DNA from: Clostridia bacterium
GTDB taxonomy: Bacteria > Bacillota_A > Clostridia > UMGS1810
DNA: 6,787 bases
Assembly: GCA_017437345.1 (NCBI GenBank)
Contig: JAFSBJ010000219.1
Location: 1-6,787 of the forward strand
Reading direction: 5' to 3'
The notes below the pieces were generated by a model. That model saw only the letters and a list, made by a program, of their open reading frames with translations, was not told where the DNA came from and did no database searches. Below, piece after piece: positions 1 to 6,787 of the stretch (position 1 is the first letter of the stretch; each line of letters starts with the position of its first letter). A program made the translations under genes and the position numbers.

Positions 1-154
1 GACTTTGAGGTTCACAGAATTTTATAAATAACAAATTTTATGATAGAATGAGGAAAAAGCGCAGGGAATATTGAGCATATTTCCGAGCATTTTGACGAAA
101 TTATATCGAAAATTTGTATTTCCAAAACGAGTTCGGATAATGCTCCAATGGCTA
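1..154 (+). mobile_element. MITE-like element, right-hand part (copy 1, left end outside window)
   Basis: Positions 1-89 match 6699-6787 at 87 of 89 bases (differences at 25/6723 and 66/6764), so this is the second half of the element whose first half lies at the other end of the window. Its right terminal inverted repeat is 131-152 (begins GTTCGGATAA, ends CTCCAATGGC). It is the reverse complement of 6579-6600 at 20 of 22 positions. A TA dinucleotide follows at 153-154, matching the TA just before the other terminus, which is the target-site pattern of the IS630/Tc1-mariner group. Joining both pieces gives about 272 bp, too short for a transposase, and no conserved protein is visible. A non-autonomous, trans-mobilised element is inferred. 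At 154 it runs straight into the SGNH hydrolase reading frame. Confidence 0.8.
131..152 (+). repeat. MITE right terminal inverted repeat
   Basis: This 22-nt terminus pairs with 6579-6600 on the opposite strand, with mismatches at only two positions (11 and 13 from the outer end). The similarity stops sharply beyond 22 nt on the inner side, and on the outer side both termini meet TA. This defines the element boundary and shows that the two partial copies belong to one family. Confidence 0.85.
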
Positions 155-760
155 TCAACCTATGAAGGTTATGTGCCCGAAGGATATGCCATATATTATG
201 GTCCCAATTCAAAGTGTGATGCAAGGGTTAGCGATGTGAGCCTCACCTGGTGGGGAAGATATTTAAAAAACACAAATTCCACCCTTTTAAGAAACTGTAG
301 CTGGTCGGGTTCAACTATCTGCCACACAGGCTACGACGGAGCAGATAAAATAAATAATTCATTCATAACCCGCATGGAAAAGCTTATAGATGAAGGCTTT
401 TTTAAAGAAAATAAACCCGACACTTTTTTTGTTTTTGGCGGCACCAACGATAGCTGGGCAGATGCTCCCCTTGGTGAAAAAATGTATTCGGGGTGGGAAG
501 TAAAGGATCTTTACTGCGTTTTGCCTGCTATATGCTATCTTTTAAATCTTTTAAAGAAAAATTTCCCCGAAACAAGAATCATATGTCTTTTGAATTCGGG
601 AGTATACAAAAAGGAAATAACCGATACATTTATCGAAGCCTGCGAAAAATATGATATAGAATATATTAAAATAGAAGATTTTGAAATGCTCACAGGTCAT
701 CCCACAGAGCTTGGTATGGAACAGATTGAAAAAATGGTGAGAGATGGGATGGAAAGATAA
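140..760 (+). pseudogene. SGNH/GDSL hydrolase remnant, 5' end replaced by MITE
   Basis: SGNH hydrolases are esterases, lipases or deacetylases that use a Ser-Asn-His active site. The frame is open from a TTG at 71, but everything before 153 is MITE sequence. The first ATG (140) lies in the MITE terminus with no good ribosome binding site, giving 206 residues. Original coding sequence resumes at the peptide STYEGYVPEGY. Members of this family normally read GDS-x-STYEGY there, so the insertion fell right after the nucleophile block, and residues MLQWL now replace it. The other blocks remain: block II Gly (SWSGS, G57), block III GGTND (Asn103) and a C-terminal GHPT (His187). No Asp lies three residues before that His, so the acid of a triad is not obvious. 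Without the catalytic Ser, activity is not expected. The substrate is unknown. The 5' fragment should lie left of the window. Confidence 0.8.
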
Positions 761-4361: not shown

Positions 4362-4366
4362 ATAAA

Positions 4367-4417
4367 AAAGCCTCCCTTGCCTAAAGGGAGGGGGACCACC
4401 GAAGGTGGTGGAGGGAT
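4367..4417 (-). repeat. left inverted repeat unit of the DUF559 cassette
   Basis: This unit contains CCTCCCTT-GCCTA-AAGGGAGG (4371-4391) and ACCACC-GAA-GGTGGT (4395-4409), ending in GGAGGGAT (4410-4417). Three segments recur inverted on the far side of the gene: AAAGCCTCCCTTG (4367-4379 against 4854-4866), CCCTTGCCTAAAGGG (4374-4388 against 4830-4844) and GGAGGGAT (against 4767-4774). GGAGGG (4410-4415) is also the only plausible ribosome binding site of the nuclease gene, so the repeat supplies its translation signal. Confidence 0.75.
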
Positions 4418-4419
4418 AG

Positions 4420-4824
4420 ATGGATAGAAAACACAATATGGAATTAACCAACAATGCAAGAGTATTGAGAAAGAATATGACAAAAGAAGAAAGACATTTA
4501 TGGTATGATTTCCTGAAAAGTTATCCCGTTAGATTTTTAAGACAAAAGGTAATTGATAATTATATAGTTGATTTTTATTGCCATAGTGCGAGGTTGATTA
4601 TCGAACTTGATGGCTCACAACATTATGAGGAAAAAGGTCTGTTAAAAGATAAAATCAGGACAGAAAGAATTGAGAAAAGAAATTTGATAGTTATTAGAAT
4701 ACCTAACAACGAATTAAACAGAAACTTTGAGGGAGTATGTCAGTATATTGATATTGCTGTAAAAGAATCCCTCCGTCAGTCTTCGACTGACACCTCCTGT
4801 GAATCCCCCAGTCAGCTACGCTGA
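4420..4824 (+). CDS. DUF559 family endonuclease-like protein carried by a repeat cassette
   Basis: The product is 134 residues of the DUF559 family, which shares the fold of the very-short-patch repair endonuclease Vsr and other PD-(D/E)XK-related nucleases. Visible features are the N-terminal RKNMTKEERHLWYDFLK helix, FLRQKVIDNYIVDFYC (core Asp), the IIELDGSQHYE strand holding the putative metal-binding E-x-D, and a final RNFEGVCQYID segment. The gene looks full length. Its actual DNA target and function are unknown. Residues 117-134 are encoded by the right-hand repeat and look like low-information read-through, so the functional domain probably ends near residue 116. The start at 4420 uses GGAGGG inside the left repeat, 4 nt upstream. 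Met7 (4438) is an alternative start. Proteins of this family often sit inside such repeats, which suggests a cargo or partner relationship (inference). Confidence 0.8.
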   Translation: MDRKHNMELTNNARVLRKNMTKEERHLWYDFLKSYPVRFLRQKVIDNYIVDFYCHSARLIIELDGSQHYEEKGLLKDKIRTERIEKRNLIVIRIPNNELNRNFEGVCQYIDIAVKESLRQSSTDTSCESPSQLR

Positions 4825-4866
4825 CAGCCCCCTTTAGGCAAGGGGTCCTATGTCAAGGGAGGCTTT
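4767..4866 (+). repeat. right inverted repeat unit of the DUF559 cassette
   Basis: From the inside out this unit carries ATCCCTCC (4767-4774), GTCAGTC-TTC-GACTGAC (4775-4791), TGACACCTC, GTCAGC-TAC-GCTGAC (4811-4825), CCCCTT-TAGGC-AAGGGG (4829-4845) and a terminal CAAGGGAGGCTTT (4854-4866). It is about twice as long as the left unit because it contains two hairpin modules instead of one. The last 18 codons and the stop of the DUF559 gene lie inside it. Confidence 0.75.
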
Positions 4867-4872
4867 GGTGCG

Positions 4873-5007: not shown

Positions 5008-5250
5008 ATGAATATAAATACTGAAACAATTACAACCATGACGGAAGCAAATCAGAATTTTTCAAAGGTTGCTAAAGTTGCGGAGAATAACGGTCAGGCA
5101 GTTATCTTCAAAAATAATAAACCCAAATTTTTGCTTATTGATGTTGAATCGGGCTTCTACTTTGATATTACTGACGATGAAAAAATAGATGTGGCGTCAA
5201 AAAGAATTATGCAAAGATTCAAGCCTGCTTTTGAGGAGCTGGCAAAATGA
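5008..5250 (+). CDS. Phd/YefM-family antitoxin
   Basis: The product is 80 residues. The N-terminal half (about 5-48) matches the Phd/YefM DNA-binding fold: an opening strand (ETITTMTEANQNFSKVAKVAE), then NNGQAVIFKNNKPKFLLIDVE. The C-terminal part (about 58-80) is a charged segment expected to fold onto the toxin and block its active site. It starts after a strong AGGAGGT (4997-5003). Its stop overlaps the toxin start by four bases (ATGA at 5247-5250), coupling translation and keeping antitoxin ahead of toxin. It is expected to repress its own promoter through the palindrome at 4940-4978. YefM proteins can pair with YoeB-type toxins, but the neighbouring gene shows that this is a Phd-Doc pair. 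Confidence 0.88.
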   Translation: MNINTETITTMTEANQNFSKVAKVAENNGQAVIFKNNKPKFLLIDVESGFYFDITDDEKIDVASKRIMQRFKPAFEELAK

Positions 5251-5624
5251 TTAAACTTAGCAAAGAAAAGGTTTTGCTATTGCATCAATTAATAGCAGAA
5301 GAAACGGGCGGTAGTGTCGGTGTAAGAGATGTTGGACTTTTAGAAAGCGCCCTTAATAATGCGTATGCCACATTTGGTGGAGAAGAACTTTATAAAACAA
5401 AAGAAGAAAAAGCAGCAAGTCTTGGATTTTCGTTAATATCTAACCACGCATTTGTTGATGGCAACAAGAGAATAGGTGTGTATGTTATGCTGACATTTTT
5501 GGAAGCAGAGGGAATAAGAATGAATTGCACCAATGCAGATGTTGTAGATTTTGCTTTGTCTGTTGCATCAGGCGATATGAAGTATGATGAAATTTTAGAT
5601 TGGATAAAAAAGTTTGAAAAATAA
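5247..5624 (+). CDS. doc: Doc-family (Fic fold) toxin
   Basis: The product is 125 residues, the usual Doc length. The Fic/Doc signature is HAFVDGNKRIG (His67 to Gly77), matching H-x-F-x-D-G-N-K-R, with the catalytic His and the phosphate-binding Asn-Lys-Arg intact. The upstream segment GVRDVGLLESALNNAYATFGG is characteristic of the Doc branch rather than larger Fic AMP-transferases. Doc of phage P1 phosphorylates elongation factor EF-Tu and halts translation, and the same activity is inferred here. The gene overlaps the antitoxin stop (ATGA). It has no N-terminal inhibitory motif of its own, consistent with control by the separate Phd-type partner. The role could be plasmid- or island-type stabilisation or phage defence; its position beside several mobile repeats fits a transferred module. 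Confidence 0.9.
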   Translation: MIKLSKEKVLLLHQLIAEETGGSVGVRDVGLLESALNNAYATFGGEELYKTKEEKAASLGFSLISNHAFVDGNKRIGVYVMLTFLEAEGIRMNCTNADVVDFALSVASGDMKYDEILDWIKKFEK

Positions 5625-6263: not shown

Positions 6264-6617
6264 ATGAAAGAAACAACTCTTTGCTATATAGAAAACAATG
6301 GCAGATACCTTATGCTCCACAGAATAAAAAAAGAAGATGATGTTAACAAAGGAAAATGGATAGGTGTTGGCGGAAAGCTTGAAAATGGCGAAGGCCCTGT
6401 GGAGTGTATTCAAAGAGAAATCAAGGAAGAAACCGCTCTGGAGATTACGGATTTAAAATACAGGGGAAAGGTCTGCTTTGTTTCAGATATATATGAAGAT
6501 GAAATAATGCACCTTTTCACAGCTAAAGCTCAAAGCAAAATTTTTTCCTCATGCCCAGAGGGCAAGCTTAAATGGATAGCCATTGGAGTACTATCCGAAC
6601 GCGCCTCAAAGTCTTGA
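6264..6617 (+). CDS. NUDIX hydrolase (MutT-like), C-terminus truncated by MITE
   Basis: NUDIX enzymes hydrolyse nucleoside diphosphates linked to another group, such as 8-oxo-dGTP. The opening (ETTLCYIENNGRYLMLHR) and the NUDIX box at 37-59 are intact: Gly37, then Glu43, then REIKEETAL (51-59), with the metal-binding Glu52, 55 and 56. Ala58 replaces the usual Gly of the box. Native sequence ends at GKLKWI (residue 105, codon ATA at 6576-6578). From 6579 the frame is MITE sequence, giving a foreign 12-residue tail ending SERASKS. MutT-like relatives run to about 150 residues, so perhaps 40 C-terminal residues, including a terminal helix, are missing. The protein may be unstable despite its complete catalytic box. 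The start follows AGGTGAT. The missing 3' part should lie beyond the right end of the window. Confidence 0.82.
   Translation: MKETTLCYIENNGRYLMLHRIKKEDDVNKGKWIGVGGKLENGEGPVECIQREIKEETALEITDLKYRGKVCFVSDIYEDEIMHLFTAKAQSKIFSSCPEGKLKWIAIGVLSERASKS
6579..6600 (+). repeat. MITE left terminal inverted repeat
   Basis: These 22 bases are the inverted counterpart of 131-152 (20 of 22 match). The preceding TA mirrors the TA after the other end, consistent with a 2-bp TA target duplication. Confidence 0.85.
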
Positions 6618-6708
6618 AAAAAGGCTTTTTCTTCGTTGTCGCTTTTGCCATACCTCGTATTACCAAAAGCTTCCGCCTTGAAAAATCTCTATTTTCAAGA
6701 CTTTGAGG
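6604..6708. repeat. internal long hairpin of the MITE
   Basis: CCTCAAAGTCTTGAAAA (6604-6620) pairs perfectly with 6692-6708, enclosing 71 bases that themselves contain pairing segments (AAGGC/GCCTT, GCTTTTG/CAAAAGC). The result is a long branched stem on either strand, able to fold as RNA or as a DNA cruciform. Whether it terminates transcription, is processed or is recognised during transposition cannot be told from sequence. Confidence 0.7.
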
Positions 6709-6787
6709 TTCACAGAATTTTAGAAATAACAAATTTTATGATAGAATGAGGAAAAAGCGCAGGAAATATTGAGCATATTTCCGAGCA

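Follow-up and report, generated by a model that had tools for sequence, protein, structure and literature searches.

A mobile, TA-flanked and non-autonomous 272-bp element with a conserved two-hairpin body and variable tips in gut Clostridia

The two ends of the DNA stretch analysed here (the window; the whole 6787 nucleotides of contig JAFSBJ010000219.1 of a Clostridia bacterium, assembly GCA_017437345.1) carry related non-coding sequence, which raises the question of what kind of element lies there, whether it moves and by which enzyme. A sequence-only reading had proposed that the ends, at positions 6577–6787 and 1–154, are overlapping halves of a single element of about 272 bp. The coordinates proved to be right, and positions 6579–6787 and 1–152 are indeed pieces of one 272-bp non-coding element, but they belong to two different copies: positions 1–89 match positions 6699–6787 at 87 of 89 sites, and the differences at 25 and 66 distinguish two copies from one circularized piece. 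The right-hand copy represents the first 209 nt of the element and continues past the window end, as judged from its match to L007:5121–5392 and its overlap with positions 1–89, while the left-hand copy represents the last 152 nt and starts outside the window (92% identity to L007:5243–5394). L007:5121–5392, from the yak colon metagenome-assembled genome (MAG) RGIG9535, spans all 272 bp without interruption and has TA on either side. It is identical to the joined window element at 253 of 272 positions (93%) without gaps and thus independently confirms the reconstruction. Recalculation also bore out the 22-bp terminal inverted repeats (TIRs), which pair at 20 of 22 positions and are bounded by TA at their outer edges; the best complementarity over 24 bases between the window ends is 22, whereas 60 first-order Markov pairs reach no more than 18. 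The element had further been described as lacking coding capacity. Of the four open reading frames of at least 50 amino acids that touch it, two continue flanking genes and two are short (70 and 54 amino acids) and are read by us as chance, so that we see no gene in the element. The window ends most probably fall within copies because short-read assemblies break at such repeats. The features are listed in Table 1.

Both window copies cut genes. The NUDIX hydrolase frame ends inside the element after ...GKLKWI, whereas its relatives extend to 151 amino acids. The lipase is cut at its catalytic GDSx motif and resumes at STYEG immediately past the TA; P0001 and P0002 (93 and 92% identical, respectively) read FILGDSY-STYEG, that is, they carry an N-terminal ...FILGDSY ahead of the STYEG of the window. 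The lipase frame demands a codon xTA, while five of five aligned relatives have Tyr (TAY). This one-base discrepancy reflects either a differing original codon or the loss of one base, the window's own insertion sites having been compared at the protein level only.

Table 1. Positions of the element copies, their parts and the interrupted genes in the window.
Feature	Position	Strand	Remarks
Right-hand partial copy	6579..6787	+	Left TIR, whole left hairpin and start of right hairpin
Left-hand partial copy	1..152	+	Whole right hairpin and right TIR
Left TIR, GCCATTGGAGTACTATCCGAAC	6579..6600	+	20/22 paired with 131–152; tip also in G001 and G002 copies
Right TIR (reverse complement GCCATTGGAGCATTATCCGAAC)	131..152	+	Pairing with left TIR
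TA, outer left edge	6577..6578	.	Read as target duplication, from TA across the group and the site without the element
TA, outer right edge	153..154	.	Read as target duplication, from TA across the group and the site without the element
Left hairpin	6604..6708	+	Arms 6604–6630 and 6682–6708, 85% complementary
Right hairpin, approximate limits	16..130	+	Window 3–130 is a row in alignment A2; model R1; covariation over 82 distinct matches
Conserved core of right hairpin, CGCAG-stem-CGAGNATTTTNACGAA	about 60–99	+	Within 16..130
NUDIX hydrolase gene, truncated by right-hand copy	6264..6578	+	PF00293; relatives P0122–P0125
GDSL-like lipase gene, cut by left-hand copy	155..760	+	Comparison with P0001 and P0002

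The terminal repeat was found in 14 stretches of a genome collection: ten in SIG434 (G002, an Oscillospiraceae MAG), one each in RGIG9535 and RGIG4708 (roe deer) and two in unrelated phyla. The last two (L001 and L005), flanked by GT and TT, were dropped as chance matches. Of the 12 Clostridia matches, 11 have TA ahead of the repeat, the exception being a 43-bp palindrome in RGIG4708 (L014) that is preceded by AA. The SIG434 copies have the same tip and are about 70–76% identical where their last 150 bp can be aligned; at zero or one mismatch the subfamily TIR yields 27 termini in SIG434 and is present in three of 147 genomes overall, with none for a reversed-pattern control. The three genomes holding related copies contain several families with a common body and other tips, and about twenty different tips occur across the group. 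R1, a covariance model built from 15 rows for the right hairpin, has matches at E ≤1e-3 in 37 of 147 relatives of G001, termed carriers below, among which the weakest (E near 1e-5 to 1e-3) may be chance matches. At most 25 candidates were scored per genome, so that copy numbers are lower bounds. The resulting locus set comprises 80 fetched regions and ten earlier loci; recovery of these 90 by R1 is no test, as they were picked by R1 or used in its training. A loose pattern of the core matched 23 of 391 genomes of the class and its reversed control 16, so that single matches mean nothing; judged by sequence, the matches in ten genomes are real, with G149 and G183 as new carriers. G149 (2.2 Mb) contains 46 termini at up to three mismatches, short palindromes counted. 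Phage and plasmid records gave no match to positions 6577–6787, none of the viral contigs contained any of three patterns, and literature searches of open-licence papers returned no description of the group. Because carriers can contain dozens of termini, of which several lie at contig ends, assemblies of gut metagenomes are probably broken up by the group, and genes interrupted.

Two ends could be assigned at 75 of the 90 loci, the 15 dropped being 13 truncated loci and two without a stem. TA stands at 62 of 70 assigned left ends and at 56 of 62 right ends, and 51 of the 75 elements have it on both sides; these counts lean upward, since the 22 tip motifs matched were chosen after the ends had been seen, and they retain the mis-assigned left ends of L135 and L169. 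Together with the 27 SIG434 termini they provide the many copies that the sequence-only reading had suggested looking for. The length without TA is 271–274 bp in 51 of 62 elements measured, and the variable tip leads into ATCCGAA in 31 of 75. Palindromes of 24 bp (G149 and G007) and 43 bp (G003) bear the same or similar tips as the element. They can be read as internal deletion products, because the joint in G149 sits at the common TCCGA; insertion of the element into small palindromes was considered and dropped. Two loci in G149 (L266 and L261) are deletion forms in which the right hairpin is gone, while the two tips and most, or part, of the left hairpin remain. A composite in the same genome (L216; G149:C23:249900–251300) has a single pair of termini enclosing two tandem right hairpins, which suggests that subfamilies have recombined. 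Another repeat family, ..GATAGCCCGAAGCTGTACAAAAGTACTGCGAG.., lies beside elements or is interrupted by them in several loci (L007:2170–2300, L058:1600–1700, L121, L130 and the flanks of L018).

The feature that distinguishes the group is a conserved, covarying two-hairpin body combined with variable paired tips. Neither the sharing of this body among families with differing tips nor its covariation can be seen in a single window. The body forms a terminal stem and two inverted hairpins that have a core motif in common, and the L007 copy gives z scores of -10.2 and -11.3 for its two strands. Alignment A1 (14 sequences) supports a three-way-junction fold with compensatory change at 44 of 74 pairs, and its consensus helix 2, together with the L007 fold, backs the left hairpin of the window. 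Over 82 distinct R1 matches 96.4% of the cells pair, and double-changed cells number 623, compared with 175 in shuffled alignments (reached in 0 of 500) and 59–129 in slid versions; the numbers lean upward, the alignment having been fitted to the model and its sequences being related. One of five covariation measures, further pair types, is barely above the shuffles (reached in 34 of 500 for the 82 matches and in 68 of 500 for A1). Six weaker R1 matches (E of 3e-8 to 4e-7) correspond to left hairpins read in reverse; the two halves therefore resemble inverted copies of a single unit that have diverged. Strand preference was assessed in 28 non-redundant elements of 268–283 bp with TA at both ends, which were folded with G-U pairs forbidden; single (1×1) mismatches inside helices were then counted, with statistics that ignore kinship between elements. 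The terminal stem has 29 GU and 19 AC mismatches and hence no significant strand bias (p 0.19), in contrast to the left hairpin (GU 2, AC 20; p 0.0001) and the right hairpin (GU 20, AC 6; p 0.009), where G·U is favoured on the motif strand of each. Counting each position and type once gives GU:AC ratios of 19 to 14 in the terminal stem, 2 to 9 in the left hairpin and 12 to 4 in the right, or 21 to 6 on the motif strand for both hairpins (p 0.006). The overall fold energy favours neither strand (the plus strand has the lower value in 10 of 28), a result to be expected if the two halves prefer opposite strands.

Movement of the element can be seen in the sister genomes G007 and G004, which have a common region of 98–99% identity. 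A stretch identical at 279 of 279 positions that includes the element (277 with both TA) lies at L258:2816–3092 in G007 and elsewhere in L259 of G004. Where G004 carries the insertion, G007 has a single TA (..CCGGATATTAATTGCATATAAG in G007 and ..CCGTCCGTTA-element-TAATTATATATAAG in G004). A candidate empty site with a single TA, as the sequence-only reading had envisaged, was thus observed once, but the neighbouring bases differ at four of seven positions on one side and at two on the other (about six), and the G007 site holds CGGATA, which is also present in the right end of the element, so that loss of an element with a remnant left behind, rather than a site never filled, is possible. Whichever reading holds, the element occupies different places in close relatives; an identical element at different places and a single TA at the site without it mean that the element moves. 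Site 1 of the same genome pair, with a mini-palindrome beside the element in G007 and a different element half in G004, was left uncounted, and cross-species comparisons in L060, L007 and L058 are inexact, one site without the element differing by one T. The many TA-flanked copies and their different places in sister genomes make the mobile, TA-flanked and non-autonomous nature of this TIR-bearing element, which had been claimed from the window, well supported. Overall, the ends of the window are probably parts of two copies of a non-autonomous mobile element, one member of a larger group that occurs in gut Clostridia resembling Oscillospiraceae.

Such an element would be inserted at TA, with duplication of the TA, in trans by a transposase acting at the terminal repeat. 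The enzyme would most likely use DDE-type chemistry, as Tc1/mariner enzymes do, given that the two ends are equivalent and that no significant strand bias is seen in the terminal stem, and its gene may be rare, lost or missing from the draft carrier genomes. The hairpins would be maintained as single strands (ssDNA in replication, or RNA), each on its motif-bearing strand. The assignment first made from the window was that of an ordinary miniature inverted-repeat transposable element (MITE) of the IS630/Tc1-mariner type, dependent on an insertion sequence (IS) resident in the same genomes. IS630 elements produce just what is seen here, TA at both ends and TIRs. For ISY100, PMC2170065 describes insertion at TA with duplication of the dinucleotide. 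However, PF13358, the catalytic domain of IS630 transposases, was found in 13 of 147 genomes and in only one of the 37 carriers, there with an internal stop, and in neither G004 nor G007. Relative to the non-carriers, of which 12 of 110 have the domain, this depletion does not reach significance (p 0.19), and draft genomes can miss multi-copy IS genes, so that absence is no proof. Tips vary from one subfamily to the next and the body is conserved, whereas a classical MITE would be expected to have constant tips and a drifting body. No autonomous element with these ends was seen: seven pairs of inverted termini lie within 2.5 kb of each other, the longest spanning 395 bp, and of 11 termini that were followed (seven in G149 and four in G007) six belong to whole, deletion or truncated elements, the other five running into contig ends and being uninformative. 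One candidate, L013, which carries a subfamily TIR, was rejected, as it has no transposase-sized frame between its ends; other short repeats lie in it. IS5-type searches were nearly empty (PF01609 in one of 15 carriers and PF13586 in one of 39). With no IS630-type transposase gene of the same termini seen in the draft carrier genomes, membership of IS630/Tc1-mariner is not supported, and we regard a resident IS630-type source as rather unlikely.

A REPIN-like origin would invoke a single-copy Y1 HUH enzyme of the RAYT or TIRYT type that acts on one ssDNA hairpin per strand, with a TA cleavage site at the 3' side of each unit. The element resembles REPINs with their RAYT (TnpAREP) in having two inverted hairpin units genome-wide, and both the reverse R1 matches of the left hairpins and the strand-specific G-U bias of each unit point the same way. 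The Y1 domain PF01797 was present in nine of 15 genomes, and four carrier Y1 proteins match NF047646 (REP-associated tyrosine transposase) at 62.8–77 bits, below the cut-off of 80. An alignment of three such proteins (A6, RAYT-type) has matches in 19 of 37 carriers and 18 of 110 non-carriers (p 6e-5), an association that weakens without the first 16 handles (8 of 22 and 17 of 109; p 0.036) and in both forms is uncorrected for kinship. Yet 18 of the 37 carriers have no A6 match, and no R1 match was seen at 38 distinct Y1/RAYT loci when their flanks were scanned over at most about 1.5 kb; 26 of these loci lie in carriers, and the set covers part of the A6 matches. In 15 of 62 elements GTAG occurs in the 60 nt on the 5' side of the right core, which is no excess over shuffled stretches (28%), and in ten of 62 it stands at the hairpin foot. 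The terminal stem has no significant strand bias. Unlike REPINs, the element thus lacks a consistent GTAG foot and flanking RAYT genes at the loci scanned; it has TA on both sides and measures 272 bp, against 20–40 bp for single REPs in PMC3733652. The same source describes TIR-associated Y1 enzymes (TIRYT) and defines TIRtrons/TIRYT repeats (Di Nocera, 2013) by a flanking Y1 gene; the present group is like these in its long inverted repeats, dispersed families and host genomes with Y1 enzymes, and unlike them in that the scanned loci showed no such flanking and the GGGGWSAS consensus is in the ends of none of 75 elements. On balance, we consider mobilization by a Y1 enzyme quite unlikely. A structured RNA or regulatory repeat (attenuator, terminator or sRNA) spread by chance events, and not primarily mobile, would fit the strong covariation and stable folds, but is very unlikely: the same element lies at different places in sister genomes, the hairpins favour opposite strands so that one transcript does not explain both, convergent gene pairs are not enriched (eight of 66 in a rough reading-frame test) and no Rfam family was found on the element (window at the gathering cut-off; four loci at E ≤1). 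Orientation relative to genes gave no clear signal.

RUP, NEMIS/Correia, ERIC and Nezha have TA as their target. Like these TA-inserting MITEs, the non-autonomous element described here is short and non-coding, with TIRs, many copies and stable folds. It departs from them in a body conserved across genomes by compensatory change while the tips differ, in its two inverted hairpin units and in that no partner IS was found. All four are grouped as MITEs in PMC3733652. A more speculative proposition, which we hold to be unlikely, is that the group is a bacterial mobile element of a new kind with structure rather than terminal sequence as its conserved identity, having two inverted hairpins recognized by an enzyme as single strands, freely changing paired tips and insertion at TA; if true, it would join REPIN-like substrate logic to transposon-like target duplication. 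The group is a natural case for asking whether selection on a transposable element can act on its folded structure rather than on the sequence of its ends, and which enzyme mobilizes repeats flanked by TA in genomes without a visible IS630 gene.

Other repeats were noted in passing. At L297 and L303, RAYT-type genes are flanked by inverted repeats such as AGGGGCGACCAATGGTCGCCCCTAC. These resemble GTAG-type REPs, and the RAYTs at these loci may have their own repeat. In the window, a DUF559 gene at 4420–4824 (PF04480) lies within 4366–4870, flanked by repeats that are imperfect palindromes of the CCTCCCTT...GGGAGG type, and looks like a separate small mobile unit; the repeat stretch beside it, at about 4367–4417, matches several relatives. 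Positions 5008–5624 contain a Phd/YefM-like antitoxin (model below cut-off) paired with a Fic/Doc gene, in DNA that is 85–89% identical in several relatives. Another dispersed intergenic repeat, with an inverted repeat at 921–941/947–967, occupies about 799–975 and also occurs in G093, G033, G138, G102, G115 and others.
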